A stretch of 64,000 bases of DNA, from positions 8,025,501 to 8,089,500 of the forward strand of contig NZ_LT629775.1 in assembly GCF_900105395.1 (NCBI RefSeq), given 5' to 3'. The stretch comes from Streptomyces sp. TLI_053. Lineage in GTDB: Bacteria; Actinomycetota; Actinomycetes; Streptomycetales; Streptomycetaceae. Position 1 is the stretch's first letter, and every line of letters starts with the position of its first letter. Of this stretch, positions 17,555-48,278 are shown piece after piece. The notes under the pieces are model-generated. The model searched no databases. It saw nothing but the letters and a program-made list of their open reading frames with translations, and was not told the DNA's origin. The position numbers and the translations under genes are program-made.

Positions 17555-18331
17555 TCAGCGGACGACCTCCGGCGCCGCCCGGGCGAACGCGGCGTCGCCG
17601 GGCGCCAGTGCGTCCGCCGGACCGGCGGCGCGCAGCACCACGTCCAGCACCGCCTCCGGGTCGCAGGCGTAACCACCGCTGGCCCAGGCCGGGTTGGCCT
17701 CCACGACCGCCCAGGTGCCGTCGGCGAGGCGGCCGACGTCGACCACGACGGCGCTCGGCAGACCGCCCGCCGCCAGCACGTCCGCCGCGAACGCGAGCGC
17801 GTCCGGCGGAACCTCCGGCGACACCGCGAGCCCGCCGTCCGCGGCGTACCGGCTCGCCGCCCGCACCGCGCCGTCCAGGACGAACAGGCGGTACTCGACC
17901 GCGAACGCGACGATGTCGCTGACCAGCACCGGGGTGTCGTCGTCCAGGGCGTCCGGGCCGGGCAGTCCGCTGCCGTCGGGGTACACCCGGGCGGCGAACA
18001 GCTTGTCGGTGGGCGGCTTGAGGAAGGCGGGCCGACGCAGCCGGCGGGCCTCGGCCAGCGCGACGCAGGTCACCTGACGGGCCGTCAGCTCATGCGGAAG
18101 CCCGGCGAGCCAGTCCGCCGGCGGCTCCAGCGGCGCGACATCCAGCGCTCCCGCCGCCACGTCGGCGAACAGCGGCCCGCCGTACAGGTGCGCGGGGCGC
18201 AGCCCGGCGAGCTCCGCCGGGACCTCCCAGCGGACGGCGGTGTGCGCCCGCAGCCCGCGCCGACGGGCGTGGGTGAGCAGGTGCAGACCGGTCTCGTTGA
18301 TCCGGGGTGCGAGCAGCAGGAGCGGGGTCAT
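17555..18331 (-). CDS. ATP-grasp domain protein (DUF4343-like)
   Basis: 258 residues, start ATG 18331 (ATG 18340 possible). Shows RPAFLKPPTDKLFAARVY (ATP-binding Lys), VLVSDIVAFAVEYRLFVLDG (adenine-binding hinge) and PSAVVVDVGRLADGTWAVVEANPAWASG (metal-binding Glu/Asn), the order of DUF4343-type ATP-grasp enzymes. These ligate a carboxylate to an amine or other nucleophile with ATP; substrate unknown. Divergent from the P-loop kinase at 18488. I see no precursor peptide next to it. Confidence 0.85.
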   Translation of the reverse strand: MTPLLLLAPRINETGLHLLTHARRRGLRAHTAVRWEVPAELAGLRPAHLYGGPLFADVAAGALDVAPLEPPADWLAGLPHELTARQVTCVALAEARRLRRPAFLKPPTDKLFAARVYPDGSGLPGPDALDDDTPVLVSDIVAFAVEYRLFVLDGAVRAASRYAADGGLAVSPEVPPDALAFAADVLAAGGLPSAVVVDVGRLADGTWAVVEANPAWASGGYACDPEAVLDVVLRAAGPADALAPGDAAFARAAPEVVR

Positions 18332-23828: not shown

Positions 23829-24503
23829 CTACGAGCCCTGCCGTCGCGGCGGTTCGACGCGGGTGCGGGCGGGGGCGAGCAACTGGTTGAGCAGCGCGGC
23901 GCCCTCGGCGGTGTCCAGCGGGACGGGGGCGACGTCGGCCGGCTTCACCAGGGCGGCGGCGTCCTCGTGTTCGTAGAGGATGCAGGAACTGCCGCCCAGG
24001 TCCCGCTTGGACGGCCAGTGCAGGCCGAGCGCCTCCGGTGCCCGGCCGCGGATCCAGGCGGCCCAGCGGCGGGTGCGCGGGTACTCGTCCGGGGTGGAGT
24101 GGATCAGCCACTCGTCCTGGTGGACGGCCGCGAGCTGGTCCAGCGTCATCAGGCCGACCAGTGTGATGTCGCAGGTGGTCTCGATCCGCGAGAGCACCCG
24201 GCCCCGGACCGAGGCGCGCCTGATCCGGCGCCAGCCGCTCTCGTCGAAGGGGATGCTCCGGACCAGCGTCTCCATCACGGCCGTGCGCTGCGAGAACCCC
24301 GCGTACAGGTACGGCAGATGGCTGCCGTCGCCCTGGTAGGAGCAGAACCGGCCGCCCTCGTAGTGGCTGTCGGAGGGGTGCGGGTTGAACGAGGTGGCCG
24401 GGTAGGCGGCCGGGTGCACCCGGTGCAGCACGGTGCCGGCGGGCAGCACCTCGAGGTGCGGGGTGGCGCGCGCGGCCGGGCCGGGGACCTTCACGTCGGG
24501 CAT
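23829..24503 (-). CDS. RES-family NAD+ phosphorylase, toxin of a TA pair
   Basis: 224 residues with the RES core: VLHRVHPAAYPATSFNP, SHYEGGRFCSYQGDG, PYLYAGFSQRTAVMETLVRS and a C-terminal GSSCILYE. RES toxins of type II RES-Xre systems degrade cellular NAD+; the conserved Arg (HRVHP), Tyr/Arg of YEGGRF and Glu of METL are present. It starts 4 bases after the stop of the gene at 24508-25212, which has a ParS-like toxin-binding domain, so the two form a toxin-antitoxin operon with the antitoxin first. Confidence 0.85.
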   Translation of the reverse strand: MPDVKVPGPAARATPHLEVLPAGTVLHRVHPAAYPATSFNPHPSDSHYEGGRFCSYQGDGSHLPYLYAGFSQRTAVMETLVRSIPFDESGWRRIRRASVRGRVLSRIETTCDITLVGLMTLDQLAAVHQDEWLIHSTPDEYPRTRRWAAWIRGRAPEALGLHWPSKRDLGGSSCILYEHEDAAALVKPADVAPVPLDTAEGAALLNQLLAPARTRVEPPRRQGS

Positions 24504-24507
24504 GCGG

Positions 24508-25212
24508 TCACCACTCCGCGATCTCGGCGCGGGCGGCGGCGAGCAGACCGTGCTCGCCCGGCGTGCCCAGCAGTCGGGCGGGGACGGCGTCCAGCCAGGC
24601 GTTGGCGCCGAGCCACCAGTCGGCCACCCCCCACGGGTCGTCGTCGGCGTCGAGCAGGCGGTTGACGGCGACCACGACGGGCAGCGGACGGCCGGAGGCG
24701 CCGTCGAACTGGAACGACGGCAGGCGGACGGTGCCCTGGCGGTCGGTCAGCCGGATCAGGTCGGGATCGGCGGGGTCGTGCCCGCCGGACCGGTAGTCGG
24801 CGGCGCTGACGGAGTCCGCGGCGAGCAGCCAGTCGTCGGCGTCGTCGGGCGGGGCGGGCAGGGCATCGGCCTCGGGCTCGGCGGGCATCCCGGGCCGCCC
24901 GGCGTCCGCCTGCCGCCCGCCGTCCGCCCGCCCGCGAACCAGGCCGAGCACCTGGAGGACGGCGTCACGGTTCGCCGATTCGACCCGGACGGCCCGTGAG
25001 TAGCGCACCGAGTCGTCGAGCGCGGCACGCACCGGGTGCCCGTCCGGGAGGGCCGCCAGCACCAGCCGCACGATCCTCCGGGCGGTCCGCTCCGGATCGG
25101 CGGACGGCGCGTCCAGCAGCGCCACGACGGTGGCCCTGGCGGACTCGTCGAGATACTCCTGGACCTCGTCCCAGTGCTCGCGCAGGACGTCGAGGACGTC
25201 GGTCAGCGCCAT
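24508..25212 (-). CDS. Antitoxin with Xre/MbcA/ParS-type toxin-binding domain
   Basis: 234 residues, ATG 25212 behind GGAGGGCGAGGGG. The C-terminal 55 residues (VNRLLDADDDPWGVADWWLG, ANAWLDAVPARLLG, LLAAARAEIAEW) match the MbcA/ParS toxin-binding domain that neutralises RES toxins. Classical Xre antitoxins put an HTH before it. Here the N-terminal 110 residues are instead an acidic helical domain (VLREHWDEVQEYLDESARAT, ARRIVRLVLAAL) with no clear HTH, joined by an Ala/Asp/Pro linker. DNA-binding ability is therefore uncertain. Encoded just before the RES toxin. Confidence 0.75.
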   Translation of the reverse strand: MALTDVLDVLREHWDEVQEYLDESARATVVALLDAPSADPERTARRIVRLVLAALPDGHPVRAALDDSVRYSRAVRVESANRDAVLQVLGLVRGRADGGRQADAGRPGMPAEPEADALPAPPDDADDWLLAADSVSAADYRSGGHDPADPDLIRLTDRQGTVRLPSFQFDGASGRPLPVVVAVNRLLDADDDPWGVADWWLGANAWLDAVPARLLGTPGEHGLLAAARAEIAEW

Positions 25213-25508
25213 CGCCCCTCGCCCTCCACTCCGGTGTCCCGTGTCCGTCGGCCGTGCGCCAATGTAGCGTGCCGGCGCCGCTCGCGGGCGGTGATCCCGG
25301 ATTCGCAAAGGCGGAACGCCTCTCGCCGATCTGCGGCATGATGGGCCCTCAGCAGCACGTCGGGGGTGGTGCCGGTTCGCGCGCGGTCGAGATGTCCCGT
25401 ACACGACCCGTACCGGCCCCGGTGCGCGCGGGGGGTGAGAACCGGACCGGTGCCGGCGCCCGGTCGGTGCGCCCCGCAGGTACACGAATCGCGCTCGGAG
25501 GGCGGCCG

Positions 25509-26915
25509 GTGAGCAGTTCCGCGGGATACGGGTGGTCCTATGTCGACCAGGAGGCCGAGCGCCGGCGGCAGTTGCGCGCCCGCCTGGCCGCCGAGGCGCA
25601 GCGGGCCGAGAACCTGCGCCGGGCCGAGGCGCGGCGGGCCGAGCTGCGGGCCCGGCTGGGCGAGCTGAACGAGCAGGCCCAGGGGCTGCGCGGGGAGGCC
25701 GGGCAGTTGCGGCGCGCGTACCGCACGGCCCGGGTCACGGTGGAGACGGTGACCGTCGGGGTCGGGGCGGACGAGGCCGAGCTGACGCGGGCGGTCGAGC
25801 GGGCGCGGGCGGCGAACGCGCGGGCCGCCGTGGAACTGGCCGAGGCGGTGCGGGACGTGTGGTCGGCGGTGCTGCCGGAGGCGGTGGCCGAACCGGAGCG
25901 TGCGCGGCCGACCCGCGCCGAGAAGCGCCGCGGTGCCGCGGAAGCGAAGGCGGACGCCGAGGCCGGGGCCGAGGCCGCCGAGCGGGCCCGGGCCGAGCAG
26001 GCCGAGCGCGTCGAGCGGGTCCGGGCCGGTGCGCTGGCCGAGGCCCAGGCGGTCCTGGACCGCGACGTGCCCCGCTGCGACCCGGCCGACCTGGAACGGG
26101 TGGCGGGCCTGGTCCGCGCCCTCGGGGCCGCCGCCGCCGTCCCCGATGTCCGGGCCACGCTCACCGACCTGGCCGCGCTGGTCCAGCATTCGGTGGCGCG
26201 CCGTGCCCGGGACGAGGAGCGGGCCGAACTGCGTTCCGCGCTCTCCGAGTTGGCGCGGGAGGCGGATCCGTCCGAGCGGGACCGGCTGCTCGCCGACCTC
26301 GCCGCCGCCGAGGACCCGGCCTTCCTGCGGCCCGCCGTCGAGAAGGCCGTCGCGCGGGCCGACGCCCGCCGCAACCGGGTGCCGGTGGCGGCGGCGCTCG
26401 CCGAGGTGCTGCGCGAGCGGGACTACCTGGTCGGCGAGGACTTCGAGGACCTGCTCGCCGCCGAGGGCGAGGTGGTGGTGCCGTTCGGCGACCCGGACCC
26501 GGAGCGGACCGGACAGTCCGGTGACGGCCGGGCCGAGGACGGCGGCGAGCCGCCGGCCGCCGGGTACGGGCTGCGCCTGGTGCTGGCCCCGGACCGGGCG
26601 ACCCTGTCCACGGCGGTGGTCCGCCGGGAGGACGCCGGGACCGGTGACGCCTGGCAGGACGAGGAGCAGGACGAGAGCGTCCAGCAGTGGTTCTGCGAGG
26701 AGCAGTTGTCCGCGATCGAGGAGGGCGTCCGGCTCCAGGGCGTGCGGCTGGAGCGGACGTCCGCGATGGCGCCGGGTGCGATGGCCGCGGGCCTCGTCCC
26801 CGGCGGGTCGTGGCCGCCGTCCGCCGCGACCCCGCGCCGCCGCCGCGGCAAGCGCGCCGGGACCGGCGCGGCCGCCGCCGTCCGCAAGCCGCAGGAGCGT
26901 GGCCGTGAGCGCTGA
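25509..26915 (+). CDS. Coiled-coil protein, first gene of the kinase/FHA/AAA operon
   Basis: 468 residues from GTG 25509 (GGAGG upstream). After GYGWSYVDQEAER comes about 300 residues of heptad-rich, Ala/Arg/Glu-dense helix (RRQLRARLAAEAQRAENLRR, ELRSALSELAREADPSERDR). A C-terminal domain follows (RDYLVGEDFEDLLAAEGEVV, GYGLRLVLAPDRATLSTAVV, QWFCEEQLSAIEEGVRLQGV) and a basic Ala-rich tail. No membrane segment. Likely a structural or scaffold component. The shape, filamentous stalk plus beta-rich head, is all that can be said; no family recognised. Its stop overlaps the AAA gene start by 11 bases. Confidence 0.85.
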   Translation: MSSSAGYGWSYVDQEAERRRQLRARLAAEAQRAENLRRAEARRAELRARLGELNEQAQGLRGEAGQLRRAYRTARVTVETVTVGVGADEAELTRAVERARAANARAAVELAEAVRDVWSAVLPEAVAEPERARPTRAEKRRGAAEAKADAEAGAEAAERARAEQAERVERVRAGALAEAQAVLDRDVPRCDPADLERVAGLVRALGAAAAVPDVRATLTDLAALVQHSVARRARDEERAELRSALSELAREADPSERDRLLADLAAAEDPAFLRPAVEKAVARADARRNRVPVAAALAEVLRERDYLVGEDFEDLLAAEGEVVVPFGDPDPERTGQSGDGRAEDGGEPPAAGYGLRLVLAPDRATLSTAVVRREDAGTGDAWQDEEQDESVQQWFCEEQLSAIEEGVRLQGVRLERTSAMAPGAMAAGLVPGGSWPPSAATPRRRRGKRAGTGAAAAVRKPQERGRER

Positions 26916-29034
26916 GCAGCAGGGGAACGGGCCGGACGGCCTGCGCAAGGACGCGCCGCCGCCCGGCTCCGGTGCCACCGAGGCCGACCCCGGCCCCGTG
27001 ACACCGAGTTGGATCCGCGAGCTGGACATGGCGCTCACCGTCCACCCGCAGGTGCTGCTGACCGGGAACGTCCGGGACCAGTACCTGCTGCCAGACGACC
27101 ACGCGGCCGGCAGCAGTGCCACCCTCGCGCCGTACAGCCTCGGCGGGGTGATCGAGTCGCTCTGCGCCGCCCGGGGTTACGGCGCGCTCGCCTTCCTCGA
27201 CCAGGTGCACGAGCGGATCACGCTGCTGCGGCTGAGCGCGACCGTCGACCAGATGCCGGCGGTGCTGCGGGAGTTCGCCGAACAGGACGAGAAGTGGCGG
27301 CGCGGCCGGGACGGTCGGGGCGCGGACGGCGGCGACGACGAGGACGAGCCGGAGATGCTGGACCGGCTGCGCGACGCCATGGTGGGTGTCGTGCACCACC
27401 CCGGCCCGCCGATCGGCCTGGTCGTGCCCTACTCCGGCCGGCTCGGTTCGCCGCAGGCACCCGTCGTCGGGGAGGCCGCCCGGCTGTTCGCGGCCGCCGA
27501 GGAACTGGGCCACACCGCCCGGCCGGTGCAGGGCGCGAGCGCCGTCACCCCGTACAACACGGTGTTCTGGGTGGTGGAACGGCAGGAGGAGCTGCCCCGG
27601 GAGTTCGCGGTCGGCAGCCGGGCGCTGCGGGTGATCAGCGTCCCGCAGCCGCCGCACGACCAGCGGCTCGCCGTCGCCCGGCACGTGGTCGGCGGGCTGT
27701 CCCGCTACCAGGCGGCGACCGGCGGACCGGCCCTCACCGGGGCCGAGACCGCGGCGGCCGCCAAGGCGCTCGCCGACTCCTCGCACGGCATGGGCAGTTC
27801 GGAGGTGATGGCGATCGGCCGGATGGCCCTGGACCGGAACCTGCCGGTGCAGCGGCTGGACGAGGCCGCCCGCCTCTACCGGATCGGCGTGCTCGACAAT
27901 CCGTGGGCCACCGCCGAACTGCGTGAACGCATCGCCGCGGGCGAGGAGTTCCTCAACGGCAAGGTGATCGGCCAGCCGTACGCGGTGCGCCGCACCCTGG
28001 AGATCTTCATGCGCTCGGCGGCCGGGCTGAACGGCGCCCAGGCGTCCAGCTCGCCGAGCCGGCCGCGCGGCACCCTGTTCCTCTCCGGTCCGACCGGTGT
28101 CGGAAAGACCGAACTCGCCAAGGGCGTGGCCGAGATGATCCTCGGCAAGGACGCCCGGCCGATCCGTTTCGACATGAGCGAGTTCGCCGAGGAGCACGCC
28201 CGGGACCGGCTGATCGGCGCCCCGCCCGGCTTCGTCGGTCACGACGCCGGCGGTGAACTCACCAACGCCGTCCGGGCGAACCCGATGAGCGTGCTGCTCT
28301 TCGACGAGATCGACAAGGCGAACCCCCGGCTGTTCGACCTCTTCCTCCAGATCCTGGAGGACGGCCGGCTCACCGACGGCCGGGGCGCCACCGTGTACTT
28401 CACCGAGTGCGTGCTGATCTTCACCTCGAACCTCGGCGTCGCGGCCTCCGTGGAGGACGAGTTGCCGAAGGGCGGTGCGGGCGCCGGCGAGGCGGACGGC
28501 GCCGCGGGTACGACGGACGGCGCCGCGGGTGCCGTCGCCGACGGTGCCGGGAGCAGCGGCGCCACCGGGACCGCTCCCCGAACCGGCCGGCGCCGACTGA
28601 GCCGCCACGACGATCCGACGATCGTCCGCCGGAGCCTGCGGGAAGCCTTCGACATCTTCTTCAACGACACCATCAAGCGGCCCGAACTGCGCAACCGCTT
28701 CGGTGACAACTTCATCCCGATGGACTTCATGCAGGAGAAGTGGGTGCCGCAGATCCTCGACAAGGCCATCGCCTCCGTCGCGGGCCGCGTCCTGGAGGCC
28801 CACGGCGCCGAGCTGATGCTCGCCGACGACGCGTGGGAGGTGCTGCGGGTCGAGGCGAACAGGCGGCTGGACCACGGTGGCCGGGGGGTGCTGACCGCCG
28901 TCGAGTCGGCGCTGGTCAACCCGCTCGCCGGAGAGGTCTTCCGGACCCCGCCCCGGCGGGGCGAGCGGCTCCGGGTGGTCGCGATCGAGGGCGACGGGGA
29001 CGGCGAGGGCTACCGGCTGGAGGTAGAGCGGTGA
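26905..29034 (+). CDS. AAA+ ATPase, ClpB/ClpA C-terminal-like
   Basis: 709 residues. The N-terminal half (to about 370) is non-catalytic-looking but P-loop-like in spacing (VLLTGNVRDQYLLPDD, PYNTVFWVVERQEELP). The C-terminal AAA+ module has Walker A GPTGVGKTELAKG (about residue 395), Walker B LLFDEIDKANP (about 465), sensor-1 VLIFTSNLG and the ClpA/B-type PELRNRFGD arginine-finger region. A 40-residue Gly/Ala insertion (about 522-562) interrupts the usual helix. Likely an unfoldase or remodelling motor acting on partners of this operon rather than a general chaperone. Confidence 0.9.
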   Translation: MSAEQQGNGPDGLRKDAPPPGSGATEADPGPVTPSWIRELDMALTVHPQVLLTGNVRDQYLLPDDHAAGSSATLAPYSLGGVIESLCAARGYGALAFLDQVHERITLLRLSATVDQMPAVLREFAEQDEKWRRGRDGRGADGGDDEDEPEMLDRLRDAMVGVVHHPGPPIGLVVPYSGRLGSPQAPVVGEAARLFAAAEELGHTARPVQGASAVTPYNTVFWVVERQEELPREFAVGSRALRVISVPQPPHDQRLAVARHVVGGLSRYQAATGGPALTGAETAAAAKALADSSHGMGSSEVMAIGRMALDRNLPVQRLDEAARLYRIGVLDNPWATAELRERIAAGEEFLNGKVIGQPYAVRRTLEIFMRSAAGLNGAQASSSPSRPRGTLFLSGPTGVGKTELAKGVAEMILGKDARPIRFDMSEFAEEHARDRLIGAPPGFVGHDAGGELTNAVRANPMSVLLFDEIDKANPRLFDLFLQILEDGRLTDGRGATVYFTECVLIFTSNLGVAASVEDELPKGGAGAGEADGAAGTTDGAAGAVADGAGSSGATGTAPRTGRRRLSRHDDPTIVRRSLREAFDIFFNDTIKRPELRNRFGDNFIPMDFMQEKWVPQILDKAIASVAGRVLEAHGAELMLADDAWEVLRVEANRRLDHGGRGVLTAVESALVNPLAGEVFRTPPRRGERLRVVAIEGDGDGEGYRLEVER

Positions 29035-29786
29035 CAGGGCCGAGCCCGGCCGGTGGTGTCCCGGCCGCCGGCGGCGCCGCAGTCGTTGCCGGCGTCCCGA
29101 CCGCCGCCGACGTCACGACCGCCGGCGGCGTCGCGGCCCTCGTCGCACAGGTCTACCGGCCGGTGACCTCGCTCGGGCCCGGCCGACGGCTCGGCGTCTG
29201 GTTCCAGGGCTGCACGCTGGCCTGCGCCGGATGCATGTCCCGGCACACCTGGACGGCCGCCGGCGGACGGGAGTTGACCGTCGAGCGGTTCGCCGCCCTG
29301 TGGCGGTCGGCGCTCGACGACGGCCTCGACGGTCTCACCGTCAGCGGCGGTGAACCGCTGGAGCAGCCGGCCGCCCTCGCCGCGCTGCTCGCCGCCGCCG
29401 ACGCCGGGCGCCGCCGCGCCGGACGCCCGGCCGACCTGCTGGTGTACACGGGCTGGGAACCGGAGGAACTGGCCGCCGACCCGGCCACCGCCGCCGCGCT
29501 GGAGGGCGCGGACGCGGTGATCACCGGCCGCTACCGGGCGGGCCTGCCCACCCGGCTGGCCTGGCGCGGCTCGGCCAACCAGCGGCTGACCACCCGCACG
29601 CCGCTCGGGCGGGAGCGGTACGCGCCCTACCTGGACCACCGGCCGGAACGGCCCGAGCTCCAGGTGCGGGTGAGCGAGGGCGAGGTCCGGGTGATCGGGG
29701 TGCCGCGCCCCGGTGACCTGGGCCGGATCGAACGGGACCTGGTCCGACGCGGCGTGACCCTCCGGGAGACCTCGTGGCGACCGTGA
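29031..29786 (+). CDS. Radical-SAM activase-like 4Fe-4S protein (NrdG/PflA-like)
   Basis: 251 residues, GTG start overlapping the AAA stop. After an Ala/Gly-rich leader of about 40 residues, VWFQGCTLACAGCMSRHTW supplies CxxxCxxC for the SAM-bound 4Fe-4S cluster. LDGLTVSGGEPLEQP is the SAM-binding GGE motif, and LLVYTGWEPEEL and ADAVITGRYRAGLPT follow as in anaerobic NTP-reductase activases. Activases of this type make a glycyl radical on a partner enzyme, but no glycyl-radical enzyme is encoded nearby. Its substrate may be another protein of the operon or a small molecule. Confidence 0.88.
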   Translation: MTGPSPAGGVPAAGGAAVVAGVPTAADVTTAGGVAALVAQVYRPVTSLGPGRRLGVWFQGCTLACAGCMSRHTWTAAGGRELTVERFAALWRSALDDGLDGLTVSGGEPLEQPAALAALLAAADAGRRRAGRPADLLVYTGWEPEELAADPATAAALEGADAVITGRYRAGLPTRLAWRGSANQRLTTRTPLGRERYAPYLDHRPERPELQVRVSEGEVRVIGVPRPGDLGRIERDLVRRGVTLRETSWRP

Positions 29787-30424
29787 TCTACCGCTGCCCG
29801 GTGGGAGCCCCGGGGGAGTGCCCGCCCTCCGCCAACCGGGGGTACTGCCAGGTGCACATGTTCCAGCAACTGGAGCGCTACGAACCGGTGGAGGACGCCC
29901 CGCCGGTCGACGCCCCGCCGACCGATGCTCCGCCGGCCGGGGCTCCGGCTCGTCCCGGCCCCGGGCCGGGCACCGATCCGGAGGCGGTGACCCGGCCGGC
30001 GCGCCCGGCCGAGCCGCGGCGTGCTCCCGGCCCGCGACCGCACCAGGGGCAGCAGCAGGGGCGGCAGCCGCGCCCCGCCCGGCCGCCGGTGGTCCGGCTG
30101 GCCCTGGTCGTCGCCGGGGTGCTGCTGCCGGTCGCCGCCGAACACCGGCGCGGCGGCGGCGGACTGGCGATCGGCCGCGACGAGCCCGACTGCGCGGCGA
30201 TCCCCGGCCTGGCCGGCCTCGACCAGCTCTCCCGGCACCACGCCCGGCTGCGCTGGATCGACGGCGCGCTGTACGTGGAGGACCTGCGGTCGACCAACGG
30301 CACCTTCGTCGACGGCCGCCGGATCGAGGGACCGACCCGGATCGGACCGGGGCACCGGTTGAGGTTCGCGCTGGACCTGGACGTCCAGGTGGTCGAGATC
30401 GACGAGTTCGGCGCGCCCCGGTGA
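29774..30424 (+). CDS. Zinc-ribbon/FHA-domain protein
   Basis: 216 residues, GTG 29774 overlapping the previous gene. The N-terminus has a Cys/His knot (YRCPVGAPGECPPSANRGYC and QVH), followed by a Pro/Ala linker. The FHA domain spans about residues 105-210, with the phosphothreonine-binding signature GLAIGRDEP, LSRHHARLRW and DLRSTNGTFVDGRRI (conserved R, S, H, N, G). FHA domains read phospho-Thr, and a Ser/Thr kinase is encoded directly after it, so it is the obvious reader of that kinase's output. Confidence 0.92.
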   Translation: MATVIYRCPVGAPGECPPSANRGYCQVHMFQQLERYEPVEDAPPVDAPPTDAPPAGAPARPGPGPGTDPEAVTRPARPAEPRRAPGPRPHQGQQQGRQPRPARPPVVRLALVVAGVLLPVAAEHRRGGGGLAIGRDEPDCAAIPGLAGLDQLSRHHARLRWIDGALYVEDLRSTNGTFVDGRRIEGPTRIGPGHRLRFALDLDVQVVEIDEFGAPR

Positions 30425-30453
30425 GCCGGGGCCGTGAGGAGGAGAACGGCGCG

Positions 30454-33400
30454 ATGGCCGAGACACCGCCGGAGCCCGGCCCGCCCACCCGCGTCCAGCG
30501 GCCCGGCCGGGCCAAGGGGCAGGGGCAGGCGCAGAGCCAGGCGCAGGGGCAGGAACCGCCGTCGGACGGGACCGGTGGCGCCGCCACGGAGAGTCCGCGC
30601 ACGCGGGTGCAGCGTCCGAAGGCCGAGCCCGGTGCCGCCGAGAGTCCGCGCACCCGGGTGCAGCGTCCGAAGGCCGAGCCCGGTGCCGCCGAGAGTCCGC
30701 GCACCCGGGTGCAGCGTCCGAGGACCGACCCCGGCGGTCCCGCCGCGTCGGGCACCGTTCCCGGCGCGCGCACCCGCGTCCAGCGCCCGGGCGGCCCGGT
30801 CCCGCCCAGCACCCCGGCCGAACCGTCGCCCGCCGTTACTCCGCCCACCGCCACCCCGCCGTCCACCGTCCCGCCCGCCGGTCCCGGCGACTTCCCCGCC
30901 GCCCTCACCGACCGCTACCACCCCGTCGGCCGGGTCGGCTCCGGCAGCGAGGGCACCGTCTGGCACGCCCGCCGCGCCGACGCCCGTGGCGGCGGCGGAG
31001 GACGCGGCAGCGGCGCCGACAGGAAGAGCCGCGGGACCGGCGCCAGCAGCGGGGCGACCGGCGCCGACGCGGCCGTGAAGGTCGGCAACCCGGGTGTGCG
31101 GGCGGACACCGAACTCCTCGCCCACCTCGCCGGCGACCCGCTGTTCCGCCGCCACGTCCCCGAGATCCTCGGCCACGGCCAGGTCGAGCACGCGGGCGCG
31201 CTCTGCGACTGGCTGGCGATGGAGTACCTCCCCCTCACCCTCGCCGACCACGTGGCCGCGCTGCGCTCGCAGGGCCGTCTCGGCCGTCGCGGCGAGACCG
31301 AGCGGATCGTCCGCGAACTCGTCGACCTGCTGGAGTTCTGGCAGGTGACGATCAAGCGCAACCCGGTCGACTTCAAGCCCGCCAACATCCTGGTCCGCCG
31401 GGGCGGCCGGAACGGCGGCTCCGCCGACGAGTTCGTGGTGGCCGACTTCGGCGGCGTCGCCAAGCTCACCGCGAGCCGTCGCTTCTCCACCGACATGCAG
31501 GTCACCGTCGCCTACATGGCACCGGAACAACTGGCGGGGAGCAACGACCCGGCCGGGCCGTGGTGGGCGCTCGGCACCATCCTCTACGAGGTGTTCACGG
31601 GCGCGAGCCGCTACCGGCGCGCGGACGGCGGCCTGGTCAGCGACGAGGCCCTGCAGTTCCGGCTGGTGATGGACGACGAGGTGGACCTCACCGCCGTTCC
31701 CGGGGAGCGCCACCGGCTGTTGCTCCAGGGCCTGTTCACCAAGGACCCGGCCGACCGGTGGACGGCGCCGCAGGTCCGGGCCTGGCTGAAGGGGGAGAGC
31801 CCGGAGGTGGTCCGCAGCCGGGTCGTCCAGCCGCCGCCCGGACCGACCCCGCCGGCCGGGCCCAAGCACCGTCCGATCGCCTTCCGGGGCGAGGACTTCC
31901 GCGAACCGGCGGCGCTCGCCGAGGCGTTGCTCAAGCGCTCGGCGGACGCGGCGGCCTGGCTGGTGAGCGGTGGCGCGCGGCGGCTGCGCGACTGGCTCCG
32001 GGACGAGGTCAAGGACACCGTCCTCGATCTGCACTACCTCGAGGACGTCGAACGCGGCACCTCCACCGGGAAGTCGGCGGCGGCGTCCCGGGCCGTGCTG
32101 GCCCTCGGTGCCGCGTTCACCCCCGAGGCGGTCCCGTACGCGCGGGACCGCCGGGTGGACGCGGTCGGGCTGGTGGAACTGGCCGAGCGGCCGGACGCGT
32201 TGACCGTGGTCGACGAGCTGGTCGCGGCCGGGCTGCTCGGGCTCGCCGCGCGCTTCCACTGCGGCCACCAGGCCTGCCCGGAGCGGGCGTGCGCCCGGCT
32301 GCTCGGGCTCACCGAGGCGGCCGCCGTGCTGAACCGGGTCGAACGCGAGGCCCGCACCCTCGGCGGCCGCAACGGCAACCCCCACGGCACTTCCGACGGC
32401 GACGGCCGCCTCACCGCCGCCGAACGCAAGGCCGCCCGCCGCTGGATCCTGCTGCTCACCCTGCAACCGGACGGGCAGCGGCGCGCCCTGGTCCGCCGTC
32501 TCTCCGCCCTGCCCGGCCCGCTGGGCGCCCTGCCTGCGCCGGTCCACTCGACCGTGACCGCGGTCGCCGACGGGGCGGGCGCGGTGGCGGCACGGGTGCG
32601 CGGCGGCGGCCGGGAGCGGTTCCGCCGCAACTGGGCGGAGCTGCGCCGCCGGGCGCTCACCGCCGACCCGGCGACGGCCGACGGCCGGGGCGTGCTCGCG
32701 GCGGCGGCCGTGCTCCAGGTGCGGAGCGTCCGTTCCGGCGGCGCGCGCCGGGGCCGGAACCGGGGGGCGTGGAAGGCGGACCTGCGCGCCTGGTGGAGCG
32801 GCGCCCAGGGCGCGCTGCCCCGGCGCGCGGTCGCCGGCGTGCTGCTGTTCCTCTGCCTCGCCCTCACCCTCTGGGCGGGCGCGGTCTGGCGGATGTCCGT
32901 CGACGCCGGGGTGGGCGGGGCCGTGGCCCCCGGCGGCGCGTTCGGCGGCCCGCTGCGGACGGCGGGGGAGGCCGCCGCGCGCGCGACGGCCGGTCAGCTC
33001 GGCGCCGCCCTGGTCGCCGCCGTCGCGGTGGCCGCGTTCCCGGCCAGGATCGGGCGCCGGATCCTCTTCCTCGCCGCCGTCGCCTCCTTCGCCATCGGCT
33101 ATCTGCACCTCGGGCCCCCGATGACCGTGCTGCGGCCGCCGCAAGCGGTGATCGACCGGGTGGTCGTGTTCGAGGGCGGCACGGCGAGCTGGGCCGGTGT
33201 GGCCGCGACGGTGACGCCCGTGCTGGTGCTGTTCGTCAACGGCCGCTCGGTGCGCTGGCTGCTCACCCCGGCGCACGAGGCCGCGGGACGGGCGGCCGGA
33301 GACCGCCGCAACCTCACCGCCCGCCGCCGCGCCCGGGGCAACGGCACCGCGGCGGGCCGGAGCTGGCGGCCCGGCCGGGACGGCCACCGGGACCGGCTCC

Positions 33401-33822
33401 TGTTCTGGCTCGGCGGGACGCTGGTGCTCACCCTGGTGCTCTGGGCGGCGGTCGAGGTCCGGCTGGCGGTGGTCCACCGTGACCACCACCCGAGCCCGGA
33501 GTCCTGGGGAACCGGCCAGGTCGGCGCGGCCTACCAGGCCGACTACCTCCTCCTGCTGGCCTTCCTCGCCCTCGTCGCCTCGGCGGTCGTCCCGGGCGCG
33601 GCCCGCCGCCTGCTGGCGGTCTCGGCGGTCGGCACGGCCGTCCTCGGCGCCTGGCCCCCGCCGCTCGGCCCGTTGGAGGCGCTGCGCATCCCCGTCCTGG
33701 GTCCGTGGTTCCGCTCGCTCGCCGAGGTCTGGGGCCACGCGTCCTTCTGGGCGGCGGTCCTGGTGATGCTCCCGCTCGCGTGCTACCTGGCCGTCTGGAC
33801 CTCCCGCCGGATCGGCGATTAG
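30454..33822 (+). CDS. Large membrane Ser/Thr protein kinase with TRVQRP repeats
   Basis: 1122 residues. ATG 30454 is preferred (GGAGGAG upstream); GTG 30421, overlapping the previous stop, is an alternative. Residues 1-150 are Pro-rich with TRVQRP five times (Thr 12, 50, 67, 84, 107). Kinase domain about 155-450: VGSGSEGTVW, a Gly/Ser-rich insertion, AAVKV lysine, VDFKPANIL (catalytic Asp; HRD reads PVD), VADFGGVAKL (DFG), YMAPEQL. A helical region follows (450-780), then about seven transmembrane helices (790-1115). Likely phosphorylates its own repeats, which the neighbouring FHA protein could bind at the membrane. Confidence 0.92.
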   Translation: MAETPPEPGPPTRVQRPGRAKGQGQAQSQAQGQEPPSDGTGGAATESPRTRVQRPKAEPGAAESPRTRVQRPKAEPGAAESPRTRVQRPRTDPGGPAASGTVPGARTRVQRPGGPVPPSTPAEPSPAVTPPTATPPSTVPPAGPGDFPAALTDRYHPVGRVGSGSEGTVWHARRADARGGGGGRGSGADRKSRGTGASSGATGADAAVKVGNPGVRADTELLAHLAGDPLFRRHVPEILGHGQVEHAGALCDWLAMEYLPLTLADHVAALRSQGRLGRRGETERIVRELVDLLEFWQVTIKRNPVDFKPANILVRRGGRNGGSADEFVVADFGGVAKLTASRRFSTDMQVTVAYMAPEQLAGSNDPAGPWWALGTILYEVFTGASRYRRADGGLVSDEALQFRLVMDDEVDLTAVPGERHRLLLQGLFTKDPADRWTAPQVRAWLKGESPEVVRSRVVQPPPGPTPPAGPKHRPIAFRGEDFREPAALAEALLKRSADAAAWLVSGGARRLRDWLRDEVKDTVLDLHYLEDVERGTSTGKSAAASRAVLALGAAFTPEAVPYARDRRVDAVGLVELAERPDALTVVDELVAAGLLGLAARFHCGHQACPERACARLLGLTEAAAVLNRVEREARTLGGRNGNPHGTSDGDGRLTAAERKAARRWILLLTLQPDGQRRALVRRLSALPGPLGALPAPVHSTVTAVADGAGAVAARVRGGGRERFRRNWAELRRRALTADPATADGRGVLAAAAVLQVRSVRSGGARRGRNRGAWKADLRAWWSGAQGALPRRAVAGVLLFLCLALTLWAGAVWRMSVDAGVGGAVAPGGAFGGPLRTAGEAAARATAGQLGAALVAAVAVAAFPARIGRRILFLAAVASFAIGYLHLGPPMTVLRPPQAVIDRVVVFEGGTASWAGVAATVTPVLVLFVNGRSVRWLLTPAHEAAGRAAGDRRNLTARRRARGNGTAAGRSWRPGRDGHRDRLLFWLGGTLVLTLVLWAAVEVRLAVVHRDHHPSPESWGTGQVGAAYQADYLLLLAFLALVASAVVPGAARRLLAVSAVGTAVLGAWPPPLGPLEALRIPVLGPWFRSLAEVWGHASFWAAVLVMLPLACYLAVWTSRRIGD

Positions 33823-40018: not shown

Positions 40019-40207
40019 GTGGCGGGACAACATGACGGAGGCACAGTGGGCAAGGCGATGTTCGGCGGCAAGCACGGCGGTGGCACCGGTCCCGGTGACG
40101 GCGGCAAGCAGCAGGACGACAGCAACAAGGGCTCCGGCCACGGCGGTGGCGGATCGGACGAGGGCGGCAACACCTCCGACGGCTCGGGCCCGGCGGGCGG
40201 CAAGTGA
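40019..40207 (+). CDS. Gly/Asp-rich small peptide, candidate RiPP precursor
   Basis: 62 residues from GTG 40019 (GGAGG 8 bases upstream). A short leader-like start (MAGQHDGGTVGKAMFGGKHG) is followed by a flexible Gly/Ser/Asp/Asn region with GDGG, QQDDSN, SDEGG and TSDGSG and a Gly-Gly-Lys end. Asp followed by Gly, Ser or Asn is the kind of site where PIMT-type enzymes make isoaspartate or aspartimide. Its stop overlaps the methyltransferase start (GTGA), strongly coupling the pair. No Cys, so it is not a lanthipeptide-type core. Confidence 0.72.
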   Translation: MAGQHDGGTVGKAMFGGKHGGGTGPGDGGKQQDDSNKGSGHGGGGSDEGGNTSDGSGPAGGK

Positions 40208-41382
40208 CCGGCGGGACGCGCCAGGAGGCGGGCCCCCAGGGGCTCGCCTCCGCGCTGGTGGCCGGCGGTGCGCTCACCCCGGACTGGCTGCCCTCGTTCA
40301 GGGCCGTGCCCCGCGAGCTGTTCGTCCCGGACCGCATCTGGCCCGGCATCGCGGACGGCACCCGGCAGAGCCCCGTCGTGGACCGGTCGCAGGACCCCGG
40401 GGCGTGGCGCGCGGCGGTCTACTCGGACATCCCGCTGACGACCCAGTGGGACGACGGAGAGCACGAGGGCGACGGTCTCGGTACCACCCCGAGTTCGTCG
40501 AACTCGTTGCCCGCCATGGTGTTCTCGATGCTCCAGGACCTGGCGGTCCGTCCTGGGGACAGGGTGCTCGAAATCGGGTCCGGAACCGGGTGGAACGCGG
40601 GCCTGCTGGCCCACCGGCTCGGCGGCACCAACGTGGTGAGCGTCGAGTACGACCCGGAGGTGGCGCGCGGGGCGCGGGACAACCTGGGCCGGGCCGGGCT
40701 GGATCCGATCACGGTCGAGGGGGACGGCCGGGCGGGCTTCGGGCCGGGCGCTCCGTACGACCGGATCATTGCCACCTGCTCCGTGCTGGAGATCCCTCCG
40801 GCCTGGCTGGAGCAGACGGCTCCGGGCGGGCTGATCGTCGCCCCGTTCGGCACCGAGTACGGCGGCGAGCACATCGTCCGCCTGACCGTCGACGACGGCG
40901 GCACGAGTGCGAGCGGGCGGTTCACCCGAAGCTCGGCGTTCATGAGGCTGCGGCAGCAGCGCACCGACCGCCCTCTGGTCGAGGCCTACCTCCACGGGAA
41001 GCCCTGGCCGGCCGACGGCGAGAAGAGCACCACGACACTGTCGCCGAGGGACACGGGCGGATGGCTGGACCAGTTCGTCATCGGGCTGGGCGTGCCCGGC
41101 ACGTTCTGGCGGGCCGAACGTTACGACGACGGCTCGTACACGCTGTGGCTGTACAGCAGGGACACCCTTTCGTGGGCCACTGCGGACCACGAGCCCGACC
41201 GCAGCGAGTACGAGGTGGTCCAGTCCGGCCCCCGCAACCTCTGGGAGGAGGTGACGGCTGTGTACCGGTGGTGGTCCTCGCAGGGCCACCCGGGCCACGA
41301 GCGGTTCGGCCTCACCGTCACCCCGGAGGGCCACACCGCCTGGCTGGACTCCCCGGGCAACCCGGTGCCCCTTCGGCGCTGA
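40204..41382 (+). CDS. PIMT-like O-methyltransferase (RiPP-modifying candidate)
   Basis: 392 residues. The N-terminal 215 residues are L-isoaspartyl-methyltransferase-like: FRAVPRELFVPDRIW, SSSNSLPAMVFSMLQDLAVR, SAM motif I VLEIGSGTGWNAGLLAHRLG (about residue 122), VVSVEYDPEVARGARDNLGR and FGPGAPYDRIIATCSV. A 175-residue C-terminal extension (TGGWLDQFVIGLGVPGTFWR, YTLWLYSRDTLSWA) is absent from housekeeping PIMTs but usual in RiPP-associated ones. It probably methylates Asp carboxylates of the 62-aa peptide, leading to aspartimide. Confidence 0.82.
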   Translation: MTGGTRQEAGPQGLASALVAGGALTPDWLPSFRAVPRELFVPDRIWPGIADGTRQSPVVDRSQDPGAWRAAVYSDIPLTTQWDDGEHEGDGLGTTPSSSNSLPAMVFSMLQDLAVRPGDRVLEIGSGTGWNAGLLAHRLGGTNVVSVEYDPEVARGARDNLGRAGLDPITVEGDGRAGFGPGAPYDRIIATCSVLEIPPAWLEQTAPGGLIVAPFGTEYGGEHIVRLTVDDGGTSASGRFTRSSAFMRLRQQRTDRPLVEAYLHGKPWPADGEKSTTTLSPRDTGGWLDQFVIGLGVPGTFWRAERYDDGSYTLWLYSRDTLSWATADHEPDRSEYEVVQSGPRNLWEEVTAVYRWWSSQGHPGHERFGLTVTPEGHTAWLDSPGNPVPLRR

Positions 41383-43969: not shown

Positions 43970-44051
43970 CGGTTCACCTCCGGGGACGGTCCCCGCACCG
44001 TAGCGTGTGGGCTGCGTGCGGGGCATCTGGATTCGTGGGGAGGACCGGGTG

Positions 44052-47000
44052 GTGGGGGACGAGGTCGAGGGGCTGGTCGGCCGCGGGCGGCGGCTGCTGG
44101 ACGAGCACGACGCCGCGGCCGATCCGCGCCGGGCCGCGATGGCGCTGTCCGGCGCGCTGACGGCGTTCACGGCGGCGCGCACGCTGCTGGAGGACGCGGG
44201 GCCGGCCGCGCCGGGCGGGGCGCTCGCGGAGGTGCGGTGCCTGCTCGGGCTGACGCTCGCCGTCCGCTACTGGAACGGTGTCGAGCGGCCGGAGTTCGCC
44301 GAGGACGAGGACGTCCGCGCCGCCGTGTGGGCGGAACGTGCCGACGCCGCAGGGCTGTTGACGCTCGCCCTGGCCGTCTTCGACCCGGCCGCGCCGGAGC
44401 GGGCGGTGGCCGCGGGGAAGCTCGGGCTGCTGCTGTACGCGCGCTCCGGGGACGGCGAGGAGGACGAGCGGGCCCGCCCGGAGGACCTCGACCGGGCGGT
44501 GGAGTCGCTGCGCCTCGCCTGCCCCGTACCGGTGCCGCTCGGACCCTGGCGACTGCTCGGCCCCGTCGGACCGGAGCACCTGCGGGACGCGCCGCACCCG
44601 TTCGACGCGCCGGACCCGTTCGACGCGCCGCACCCGTTCGACGCGCCGGACCCGTACGACGAGCAGGACCCCGGCCTCCTGCTGGCGCTCGGCTGCGCCC
44701 TCGCCGACCGCCACGACCGCGACGGCGCCCCCGCCGACCGCGCCGCGGCCGACGCCGTCCTGACCGGCCTGCTGGACCGGCTCCGCCCGCAGCCGTGGCA
44801 CGAACCGGGCACCGCCCCGCCGCGCCCCCACCCGGAGGCCGATCCGGGACCGGCCGAACTCGCCGAACAGGTCGAACTGCTCGCCCGCGAACGCCTCGTC
44901 CGGCTGCTGCTCGGCCCGGAGGAGGACGGCGGCGGGGACCTCGGGACGGTCGACCGCGCCCTCGCCCAGCTGGAGACGATCGCCGCCACCACCGCGCCCG
45001 ACGCGCCCGCCCGGCTGTGGGCCGGCCTGGTCCTGGTGGACCAGTACGTCGCCCGCGGCGGCGGCACCGCCCGCCCCGAGGACGCCGCCCACCGCCTCGC
45101 CCGGCTGCGCGACCTGCGCCGGCTGCTCCCGCCGGGGCACCCGGACGGCGGCACCGTGCGCTGGGTGCTCGGCAGCACGCTCGGCGGCCTCGCCCGGCTC
45201 GACCGCTACCTGCTGACCGCCGAGGCCCGGGAGGCGGTCGAGGTGCTGCGCGAGGGCCTCGACGGGATGGCCGGGGACGACCCGGTGCGGCCCGCCTCGC
45301 ACGCGGTGCTCGGCACCATGGTCAACGCGCTGTGCGAGCAGGAACCGGAGTCCTACCACCTGGAGGAGGCGCTGCACCACCTCGAACGCGCCGTCCGCAC
45401 CATGGCGGAGGAGGACCACGGCGTCCGCCGCAGCGACGTCCTCCAGCAGCTCGCCCACGCCTCCATCGCCCGGGACGAGTTCTCCACCGACCGGGCCGCG
45501 CTGGACCGGGTGATCGGCCTGCTCGACGACGCCCGGGCCCGGCCCTCCGGCACCCTGTGGTCGGAGCAGCACCTGGACGGCTCGCTGGCGGCCGTGATGA
45601 GCAAACGGTTCGCGTTCACCAACGCCGCCGCCGACCTGGACGCGGCGATCCGGCACGAACGGGCCGCGTTCCGCCGGGCCGCGCCGGACGACGTCAACCG
45701 CGTCGTCCACCTCGAGAACCTCTCCGTCAGCCTCTACCGGCGCTACCTCCTCGGCGGCGACCACCAGGACCTCGAGGCCTCCCGCCGCTACACCGACGAA
45801 GTGGTGGCCTTCCTCGCCGGCAGCGACCACCCGGGCGTCGGGCGGCTGCTCGGCGCACAGCGTCCGATGCTCGAACGGACCCGGCTGATGCTGGAGTTCC
45901 AGGCCGCCCTGCTGGTCCGGGACGTCGAGGCGATGGGGCGGGTGGTGGCCGCGCTGGAACCGCTGGTCGCGGCGGTTCCGGAGGACGACCCGCTCCGGCT
46001 GCTGGCCCGCGGCGACCTCGGCGCGGTGATGTTCATGCACGCGGTGCACACGGGGTCGGACCGGCTGCCGGAAGCGCTCGGACTGATGGCGGAGGCGGCG
46101 AACGGGACGCCGCCCGGGCACCTGTACAAGGCCGTGCTGACGATGCGGGCCGCCGGAGCGCTCGTCATGATCGCCGTGCAGCGGCCGTTCAACGAGCACC
46201 GGGCCGAGGCCGCGCTCCGCCTTCTCGACGCCTTCCTCGCCGAGACCGACCCGACCGGGCTGGAGGGCTCCCGGGCCCTGCTGCTGCGGGCGGTCCTGCT
46301 GCTGGAGCGCTACCGCCACGCGCGCCGGCCCGCCGACGCGGCCGGGGCGCTGGCCGCCGCCGGGGCCGTGCGCGAGCGGATGCGGCTCGGGACGCCGACC
46401 CTGCTGCTGGCCAAGGTGAGCGGGATCGTCGCGGCCGTCCACCGGGCCCGGCTCGGGGCGGAGGACCGCCGGCTCGGCCGCGAGCTCGGGCTGGCCGGGC
46501 TGCGCGAGCTCGCCGCCGCCACCCTGATCCAGGCGTCGGCCGAACCGGCCCTGGTGCTGGCCCGGGCCGCCGCCTTCGAGGCGCTGACCGTCGCCGGGTG
46601 GTGCGTCGAGGACCTGGAGCAGGAGGCGGGGCAGGCCGCCGCCGGTGCGTCCGTCCCCGGTGACGAGCCCTTCCTGCGGACCGCCGTCGAAGTGCTGGAG
46701 CTCGGCCGCGGCCTGGTGCTGCAAGCCTCCACCGCCACCACCGACGTCCCCGACCTGCTGCGGACCGCCGGGCACCACGACCTCGCCGACGCCTGGCTGG
46801 GCCCCGGCCCGGGCACGGGCGCGGAGGACGGCGCAGCGGGCGGTACAGCGGGCGGTACAGCGAACGGCGCGGAGGACCCCTACGCCTTCGACGCGCTGCT
46901 CGACCTGCCCGGCACCCTGCTCGCGAACCTCCCCGGCGGCGCCGACATCCCGATGCCCGACGACCTGCGCCGCCGCGCGCTCACCGCCCTCGCCGCCGCC

Positions 47001-48278
47001 CCGGCCGGCCCGGCGCTGGTGTCCGTGCCCCCGGTCGAGGAGATCGCCCGCAGCCTGCGCGCGGCCGACGCGGACGCCCTGGTCTACCTGCTGCCGCCCG
47101 CCGACGGACGCAGCGGCCAGGCCCTGCTGGTCACCGCAGGCGAGGAGGGCGGCGCCGTCGACCGGCTGCCGCTCACCCTGGTCAGCACCGCCGCGCTCGA
47201 CCTGCTGCACGCCTACCGGCGGGCGCACCGCGAACGCCAGGCCACCCTGGACGCCCTGCCGTCCCGTCACCCGGAGCGGATCGCCGCCCGGCGGCGCTGG
47301 CAGGGCACCCTCCGCGAACTCTGCGACTGGGCCGGCACCGCCGTGATGCGCCCGCTGCTGCGCCACCCGGCCCTGCGGTCGGCCGCCGCCCGGCGCGCGC
47401 CCGGTGCGCCGCCCCGGCTGGTGCTGGTGCCGTACGGCGCCCTGGGCGGCGTGCCCTGGCACGCGGGGCTGCTCAGCAGCGGGCTGCGCGACGGCGGCCG
47501 GCCGGTGCGGGTCGTGGAACGGGCGGTGGTCTCCTACGCCGCCTCCGCCCGGCAGTTCTGCGAGGTGGTCCGGCGGCCCCGGCTGCCGCTCGCCGAACGG
47601 CCGGTGGTCGTCGGCGACCCCACCCGGGACCTGATGTTCGCCGAGGTCGAGGCCGAGTACCTGCACGCCGACCACTACCCGCACGGCACCCTGCTCGGTT
47701 ACGTCGAGGACGCCGAGGGGGCGGGCACCCCGGCCGAGGTGCTGGCCGCGCTTCCGGCGCCCGGACGGGCCGGGGCGTCCGTGCTCCATCTGGCCTGCCA
47801 CGCGCTGCCGTCCGGGCGCTCGCCGCTCGATGCCTGCCTCGCCCTCGCCCCCGACCCGGGCGCCGGGGACCGGCACGGCCGACTGCCGGTCGGCGACATC
47901 CTGCGCCAGGCGCTGGGCCGCCCGCCCGGCTCCCCGGGCGGACTGGTCGTGCTGGACGCCTGCGTCAGCGACCACACCGGCGAGGACCTCGACGAGGCGC
48001 TGACCCTCTCCAGCGCCTTCCTCGCCGCCGGGGCGACGGGCGCGATCGGCTCGCGCTGGGAGGTTTCCGACGAGATGGTCTGCGTGCTGATGTACGTCCT
48101 GCACGGCCGCCTCGCCGCCGGGGACCCGCCCGCCGAGGCCCTGCGCCGCGCCCAGCTGTGGGCCCTCGACCCCGACCGCCGCCTGCCCCCGCAGGCCCCG
48201 CCCGAACTCCACTCGCTGGCCGGCCGCGCCCCGGACGCCCTGGAGGTGTGGGCGGCCTTCTCCTACCAGGGCTACTGA
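44052..48278 (+). CDS. Large TPR-like/CHAT-domain protease-like protein
   Basis: About 1408 residues (GTG 44052 chosen for spacing from GGGGAGG; GTG 44049 possible). Residues 1-960 are helical, TPR-like repeats (AREAVEVLREGLDGMAGDDP, YHLEEALHHLERAVRTMAEE), with a DAPHPFDAPDPF repeat near 180-205. The C-terminal CHAT domain (about 1000-1408) has the caspase-like dyad: His in VLHLACHALPSG (about 1249) and Cys in LVVLDACVSDHTGED (about 1303), plus FLAAGATGAIGSRWEVSD. CHAT proteins are cysteine peptidases in bacterial conflict and cell-death systems; the target is unknown. Confidence 0.9.
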   Translation: MGDEVEGLVGRGRRLLDEHDAAADPRRAAMALSGALTAFTAARTLLEDAGPAAPGGALAEVRCLLGLTLAVRYWNGVERPEFAEDEDVRAAVWAERADAAGLLTLALAVFDPAAPERAVAAGKLGLLLYARSGDGEEDERARPEDLDRAVESLRLACPVPVPLGPWRLLGPVGPEHLRDAPHPFDAPDPFDAPHPFDAPDPYDEQDPGLLLALGCALADRHDRDGAPADRAAADAVLTGLLDRLRPQPWHEPGTAPPRPHPEADPGPAELAEQVELLARERLVRLLLGPEEDGGGDLGTVDRALAQLETIAATTAPDAPARLWAGLVLVDQYVARGGGTARPEDAAHRLARLRDLRRLLPPGHPDGGTVRWVLGSTLGGLARLDRYLLTAEAREAVEVLREGLDGMAGDDPVRPASHAVLGTMVNALCEQEPESYHLEEALHHLERAVRTMAEEDHGVRRSDVLQQLAHASIARDEFSTDRAALDRVIGLLDDARARPSGTLWSEQHLDGSLAAVMSKRFAFTNAAADLDAAIRHERAAFRRAAPDDVNRVVHLENLSVSLYRRYLLGGDHQDLEASRRYTDEVVAFLAGSDHPGVGRLLGAQRPMLERTRLMLEFQAALLVRDVEAMGRVVAALEPLVAAVPEDDPLRLLARGDLGAVMFMHAVHTGSDRLPEALGLMAEAANGTPPGHLYKAVLTMRAAGALVMIAVQRPFNEHRAEAALRLLDAFLAETDPTGLEGSRALLLRAVLLLERYRHARRPADAAGALAAAGAVRERMRLGTPTLLLAKVSGIVAAVHRARLGAEDRRLGRELGLAGLRELAAATLIQASAEPALVLARAAAFEALTVAGWCVEDLEQEAGQAAAGASVPGDEPFLRTAVEVLELGRGLVLQASTATTDVPDLLRTAGHHDLADAWLGPGPGTGAEDGAAGGTAGGTANGAEDPYAFDALLDLPGTLLANLPGGADIPMPDDLRRRALTALAAAPAGPALVSVPPVEEIARSLRAADADALVYLLPPADGRSGQALLVTAGEEGGAVDRLPLTLVSTAALDLLHAYRRAHRERQATLDALPSRHPERIAARRRWQGTLRELCDWAGTAVMRPLLRHPALRSAAARRAPGAPPRLVLVPYGALGGVPWHAGLLSSGLRDGGRPVRVVERAVVSYAASARQFCEVVRRPRLPLAERPVVVGDPTRDLMFAEVEAEYLHADHYPHGTLLGYVEDAEGAGTPAEVLAALPAPGRAGASVLHLACHALPSGRSPLDACLALAPDPGAGDRHGRLPVGDILRQALGRPPGSPGGLVVLDACVSDHTGEDLDEALTLSSAFLAAGATGAIGSRWEVSDEMVCVLMYVLHGRLAAGDPPAEALRRAQLWALDPDRRLPPQAPPELHSLAGRAPDALEVWAAFSYQGY
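44586..44665 (+). repeat. Tandem repeat encoding DAP[HD]PFDAP
   Basis: Roughly 18-bp units within the CHAT-protein gene encode four DAPHPF/DAPDPF-like motifs. In-frame repeat number changes would lengthen or shorten a Pro/Asp linker between two helical regions. Confidence 0.75.

Follow-up and report, generated by a model that had tools for sequence, protein, structure and literature searches.

What does an operon do that joins a coiled-coil protein, a Clp/Hsp100-type AAA+ ATPase, a radical SAM protein, an FHA protein and a membrane Ser/Thr kinase? This question is raised by a 64,000-nucleotide stretch of Streptomyces sp. TLI_053 DNA (the window, meaning the whole stretch analysed), which sits in a 9.9-Mb single-contig genome. 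An initial annotation, made from the letters of the window, had proposed a conflict or stress-response machine, and we retain this role as a best guess only. We consider it possible, with a probability of roughly 0.45, that the locus encodes an eight-component, phospho-regulated effector system for conflict or severe stress.

Gene layout and probable effectors of the locus

Inspection of the open reading frames confirmed all five ORFs of 25509-33822 (+) in their annotated places, with successive overlaps of 11, 4, 13 and 4 nt, and the five-gene operon is thus real. Its boundaries were drawn too narrowly, as the RES, hypB and CHAT genes were missed (Table 1). RES and hypB are transcribed divergently from the operon, and CHAT lies ~10 kb downstream of the kinase. 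Since the likely effectors, namely a RES toxin, its probable antitoxin and a CHAT protease, fall outside the original boundaries, the meaning of the unit changes. Reading the operon from the window alone was abandoned, as sister loci have RES-hypB and CHAT as recurring companions.

Table 1 Features of the locus, with positions counted from the first letter of the window
Feature	Position	Strand	Description
RES-domain protein	23829..24503	-	224 aa; PF08808 9.1e-18; probable NAD+ phosphorylase toxin (effector)
hypB	24508..25212	-	234 aa; probable antitoxin/partner of RES
Divergent intergenic region	25213..25508		separates RES/hypB and five-gene transcription units
Coiled-coil protein	25509..26915	+	468 aa; proposed AAA+ adaptor
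Clp/Hsp100-type AAA+ ATPase	26905..29034	+	709 aa; AAA_2/ClpB-D2-like (AAA_2 2.6e-40)
NrdG-like radical SAM protein	29031..29786	+	251 aa; Fer4_12 PF13353 4e-25
Cys/His-rich N-terminus + FHA protein	29774..30424	+	216 aa; PF00498 2.1e-15; phosphothreonine reader
Membrane Ser/Thr kinase	30421..33822	+	1133 aa; PF00069 1.4e-15
TPR-CHAT protease	44007..48278	+	1423 aa; CHAT 3.2e-35; displaced eighth component

Alternative starts are found for the kinase (ATG at 30454) and for TPR-CHAT (44016). The divergent intergenic region is conserved in close relatives, and an element located 5' of hypB, CAATGTAGCG, is common to L021/L031, L030 and L022, where it may represent a promoter or operator. When compared with the 91%-identical copy of K. 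purpeofusca, all seven contiguous genes, including RES and hypB, have Ka/Ks values of 0.21-0.36, which indicates purifying selection on each of them. In an empty-site comparison, the flanking markers of the system were not adjacent in relatives that lack it. Two further features of the window were observed. The region 40046-41382, between the kinase and CHAT, contains a methyltransferase, which scores 334 of 380 bits to TIGR04188 (ATP-grasp peptide maturase methyltransferase), and a Gly/Ser/Asp-rich peptide of 53 aa; from sequence, the pair was judged to be a possible remnant of a graspetide cluster. An R2K-clade ATP-grasp protein is encoded at 17555-18331.

The RES-domain protein is predicted to be a probable NAD+ phosphorylase. 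Its residues R28, R52, Y67, S165 and R167 are conserved in 41-45 of 45 members and, by motif and spacing, plausibly match R23, R82, Y93, S184 and R186 of NatT (PMC11535050). This mapping left NatT N193 without a counterpart, and phmmer returned no match to RES in the PDB. RES enzymes convert NAD+ and phosphate into ADP-ribose-1''-phosphate (PMC9503650; PMC11535050).

The neighbouring hypB adjoins RES in loci that contain both genes, and its sequence has no Pfam or PDB match. Its AF2 model (pLDDT 83) consists of a helical N-terminus and a conserved C-terminal domain. Residues 146-234 align weakly to NatR of the NatRT RES toxin-antitoxin complex (Z 4.2, 3.6 Å, 80 residues); Rv2175c gives a higher Z of 9.6, but with a poor rmsd of 5.6. 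This one weak fold match, together with adjacency, suggests hypB as a probable antitoxin or partner of RES.

In the CHAT protein, His1262 is conserved in 40/41 members and Cys1316 in 39/41. Over 1380 aa, it shares 55% identity with the CHAT protein encoded directly 3' of the kinase in L022, with 45% identity in L033 and 41% in L052. The same displacement from the kinase is seen in G007, the nearest relative carrying the locus. On account of this full-length orthology and shared displacement, we count CHAT as the eighth component.

Occurrence in other actinomycetes

One genome per species was scanned with an alignment of the radical SAM protein, which yielded 80 actinomycete loci, and their gene content was determined with a simple codon-usage gene caller and profile searches. 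Co-occurrence of the homologues had been set beforehand as a test of the operon, and it proved strong. Among the 56 loci whose 10-kb flanks were complete, AAA+ is present in 54, the kinase in 54, FHA in 48, CHAT in 40, RES in 35, hypB in 35 and a macro domain in 30; the radical SAM protein being the bait, these counts state how often the other parts accompany it, and not the reverse. By comparison, one kinase and none of the other parts turned up in 20 regions of 20 kb that were taken without selection from four genomes of the same genus. The five genes recur across actinomycete genera as the one conserved unit originally suggested. RES cannot be obligatory, since it is missing from 21/56 loci, and 9/56 have no recognised effector within 10 kb.

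The set is found in three arrangements across many actinomycete genera. The compact arrangement follows the order seen in the window, and RES-hypB stands beside the operon in K. purpeofusca, G022, Catenulispora (57% AAA+ identity) and other genera. The gene after the kinase is TPR-CHAT in several loci with RES-hypB. The extended Streptomyces type begins with CHAT-hypB-RES, a TM coiled-coil protein, a secreted vWA-like lipoprotein and a macro-domain protein, and continues with radical SAM, kinase, coiled coil, AAA+ and FHA. Most extended Streptomyces loci include the macro-domain protein, a partner that makes biochemical sense because the product of RES is ADP-ribose-1''-phosphate. The third type, found in Amycolatopsis, Lentzea, Kutzneria and Actinokineospora, is composed of an OmpA lipoprotein, kinase, coiled coil, AAA+, FHA, a TM protein and radical SAM, followed by CHAT, STAND-LuxR and caspase genes. 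Three loci (L040, L045 and L050, from Actinokineospora, Kutzneria and Amycolatopsis) combine the same core with CHAT, STAND-LuxR and a C14 caspase and have no RES.

The effector genes also occur on their own. Five Streptomyces-family loci (L136-L139 and L141, in genomes G212, G349, G172, G256 and G283) carry macro-hypB-RES-CHAT-caspase (C14) with no kinase, AAA+ or radical SAM gene nearby. The presence of hypB in these core-free loci indicates that the effector genes can form a module of their own, and their gene content suggests an effector cassette that is probably able to work alone. Comparison of the pairwise-identity matrices between the effector side (RES, hypB and CHAT) and three core proteins (AAA+, kinase and radical SAM) gave correlations of r 0.82-0.96, a level reached in 0/499 permutations. 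This correlation fits stable co-inheritance and partly reflects ordinary vertical descent.

These patterns bear on another explanation, in which the core is a membrane-associated assembly or remodelling machine for the envelope, secretion or development, similar to PpkA-Fha-ClpV, and RES-hypB and CHAT travel with it as passengers that serve for addiction or as a safeguard. Such a machine would account for the core being steadier (AAA+ and kinase in 54/56 loci) than RES (35/56), for a kinase with seven TM segments, and for the secreted vWA-like or OmpA lipoproteins and TM coiled-coil proteins of the longer loci, and it has a precedent in STK-FHA-Hsp100 assemblies. We nevertheless regard it as rather unlikely: the genome has no TssC sheath gene, the divergence of RES, hypB and CHAT parallels that of the core, and CHAT remains a full-length orthologue even where its gene has been displaced.

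The distribution is patchy, with the radical SAM family in 12/395 genomes of the class and the AAA+ in 3/25 genomes of the genus, and plasmid and phage records gave no match to the radical SAM gene. A housekeeping stress circuit for NAD metabolism or dormancy, leading to persister-like or developmental arrest and not directed at invaders, would agree with a chromosomal locus that is absent from phage and plasmid records. NatRT, furthermore, drives persistence (PMC11535050). The patchy occurrence (12/395 and 3/25) is more like that of an accessory conflict system, and a housekeeping role appears improbable to us.

Chaperone, signalling and radical SAM components

Domain and motif searches confirmed that the kinase, FHA, AAA+ and radical SAM motifs are intact, as first annotated. 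The AAA+ protein contains GPTGVGKTE, LLFDEID and a GFVG pore loop. In its second module, Walker A, Walker B and sensor 1 are present in 72/73 members and the pore loop in 71/73. In the N half, Walker A was found in 0/72 members. Residues 31-709 of the AF2 model (pLDDT 81.7) align to NBD1+NBD2 of ClpC1/ClpB with Z about 30 over 513 residues and an rmsd of 11.5, which probably reflects the orientation of the modules in the model. By sequence, the protein consists of a degenerate first ATPase module and a live second module of the threading type. The ClpP-docking tripeptide [ILV]G[FL] occurs in 0/72 members within 25 residues of TSNxG, and we infer remodelling rather than degradation from its absence.

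The protein thus resembles the ClpB/ClpC/ClpA unfoldases in its second ATPase ring, its GFVG pore loop and its two-module fold (Z about 30). In contrast to them, it lacks the first-ring Walker A, a ClpN family match and the ClpP-docking tripeptide, and it is fused to no protease. An assignment as a ClpB disaggregase was rejected, given a score of 207.8 bits against an equivalog cut-off of 1232 and a first ring without Walker A. A ClpP-dependent ClpA/ClpC was rejected as well, the docking loop after sensor 1 being present in 0/72 members.

A coiled-coil-type gene lies directly 5' of the AAA+ gene in 72 loci, and hhalign shows the coiled-coil proteins of the three architectures to be homologous. 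The protein has no matching family in Pfam or NCBIfam, and homology with the coiled-coil proteins of GAP1-N2-like loci found no support, with an hhalign probability of <1%. It had been taken for the structural core of an assembly; an AAA+ adaptor is more probable.

The kinase contains the motifs DFKPAN and DFG, and its catalytic Asp, its Asn and the DFG Asp are invariant in 76/76 aligned sequences. With 7 hydrophobic segments in its C-terminal half, it is predicted to be a 7-TM membrane Ser/Thr kinase. The partner protein, described at first as zinc-ribbon/FHA, does contain an FHA domain. Its N-terminus is Cys/His-rich (CPVG..CPPS..YCQVH) and is kept in relatives, and a zinc site there is likely as a prediction. 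In the Catenulispora loci L023/L024, FHA and kinase are fused in one polypeptide, which supports their joint action.

The radical SAM protein carries CxxxCxxC in 74/74 members and GGEP in 73/73. It matches TIGR02491 (NrdG) at 4.7e-25 with 88.3 bits, below the equivalog cut-off of 126.1. NrdD (PF13597) has no match in the 99.99% complete genome, while control genomes were positive, and none of the genes in the locus was recognised as encoding a glycyl-radical enzyme. The designation as a radical-SAM activase therefore does not hold in the NrdG sense, and the role of an anaerobic RNR activase was rejected. The protein is NrdG-like in its Fer4_12 domain, its CxxxCxxC motif and a partial TIGR02491 score (88 of 126 bits). 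It differs from NrdG in a conserved C-terminal extension, in its linkage to AAA+/FHA/STK genes and in residing in a genome with no NrdD. The single glycyl-radical domain protein of the genome (G000:C1:8909799-8910119; PF01228, 4.4e-30) is encoded 0.85 Mb off.

Another proposal centres on this protein, as the modifier of a peptide or protein effector, with the remaining genes providing regulation and substrate unfolding. The invariant CxxxCxxC would fit such a role, as would a genome without NrdD, in which RNR activation is unlikely, and a radical SAM role of this kind has been proposed for some FtsH-ternary systems (Kaur et al., PMC7159879). A non-systematic search of short ORFs identified no conserved small precursor gene in the loci. 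Peptide maturases, moreover, usually have SPASM/RRE domains, which are not known in NrdG-like proteins. Both points speak against this proposal, which we consider very improbable.

A proposed mechanism and its relation to known systems

The phospho-regulated effector system remains our preferred reading. It is favoured by the co-occurrence of core and effectors (56 loci versus 20 controls) and their correlated identities; by the conserved catalytic residues, an AAA+ without ClpP docking and the NatR-like C-terminus of hypB; and by the macro domain, the core-free module and the replacement of RES by CHAT/STAND-LuxR/caspase elsewhere. The T6SS and chaperone-controlled conflict systems supply precedents. 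In the threonine phosphorylation pathway of the T6SS, the Hsp100 ATPase ClpV1 is recruited by a membrane kinase together with an FHA scaffold (PMC3953482), and the chaperone-controlled conflict systems include a module of ART toxin, antitoxin and chaperone (PMC7159879). Against this reading stand the loci without RES or without any recognised effector, the weakness of the fold match between hypB and NatR, the share of vertical descent in the correlated identities, the absence of a plasmid or phage match and a pathway with no evident need for radical SAM chemistry.

The composition of the system, its gene linkage and its conserved catalytic residues are direct observations, and from them we infer every functional step and interaction that follows. 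We postulate that the membrane kinase would sense a signal and phosphorylate a target, which may be the kinase itself, the coiled-coil protein, hypB or a further partner. The resulting phosphothreonine would be bound by the FHA protein, which, by analogy with kinase-FHA-ClpV1 of the T6SS, would recruit or license the AAA+. The second ring of the AAA+, with the coiled-coil protein as its adaptor, would thread polypeptides without a protease partner, and may pull the antitoxin-like hypB off RES and/or remodel TPR-CHAT. Freed RES would deplete NAD+, with ADP-ribose-1''-phosphate as the product, and CHAT would cleave its target. As a result, the cell would stop growing or die when faced with conflict or severe stress. 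An additional checkpoint may come from the radical SAM protein, through modification of a component or a substrate; its role is the weakest link of the mechanism. A sharper version, advanced more tentatively, is a programmed-arrest or anti-invader system of filamentous actinobacteria in which radical SAM and kinase-FHA would license a half-dead Clp/Hsp100 to release RES and CHAT, with effectors exchangeable between lineages.

If this is true, a recurrent unnamed system joins the conflict repertoire of multicellular actinobacteria. It would bring together eukaryote-like phospho-signalling, Hsp100 remodelling, NAD+ destruction and caspase-like proteolysis, which are rarely combined. Kinase gating of a toxin-antitoxin pair would become testable, as would the idea that a radical SAM enzyme acts as a checkpoint when bacteria undergo programmed cell death.

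No named system of the same composition was found in the open-access literature. PADLOC-DB gave no complete anti-phage system, only generic AAA+/kinase matches (PDC-M37B, mad6 and PD-T4-6). RES-Xre/MbcTA/NatRT modules likewise pair a RES toxin with a protein whose C-terminal fold is weakly matched, via NatR, by that of hypB. In contrast to these modules, hypB is without a Pfam match (no HTH) and its N-terminal domain is helical, and the locus is embedded with kinase, AAA+, radical SAM and CHAT genes. With PpkA-Fha1-ClpV1 of the T6SS, the locus shares a membrane Ser/Thr kinase, an FHA scaffold and an Hsp100 AAA+. It differs in its toxin and protease partners and in an AAA+ well below the ClpV cut-off. 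T6SS membership was rejected, as the genome has no TssC/VipB sheath (PF05943).

Multicellular bacteria contain MoxR-vWA ternary and GAP1-N2 GTPase conflict systems, which combine chaperone NTPases with swappable effectors, kinases, FHA and macro domains; one subtype also includes radical SAM domains (Kaur et al. 2020, PMC7159879). The present system shares with them a chaperone-type NTPase core, swappable effectors, kinase/FHA/vWA/macro components and an occurrence in multicellular actinobacteria, and distant relatives of its AAA+ are found in GAP1-N2-like loci (L027-L029). These Catenulispora-family loci, GAP1-N2-like by eye, contain vWA, kinase, coiled-coil, Hsp70-like and related Clp-type AAA+ genes, and in L028 these are joined by a distant radical SAM relative. 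A general Pfam scan of window genes near our locus recognised no MoxR-vWA pair and no GAP1/GTPase gene. Unlike the published systems, the compact form has no recognised MoxR, GTPase or vWA co-chaperone; instead, it features a Clp-type AAA+ with a coiled-coil adaptor, RES and CHAT effectors and a near-constant radical SAM protein. As a whole, the locus apparently represents a recurrent, unnamed system whose general kind, chaperone-thresholded and effector-bearing, is known and whose combination of parts is unusual.
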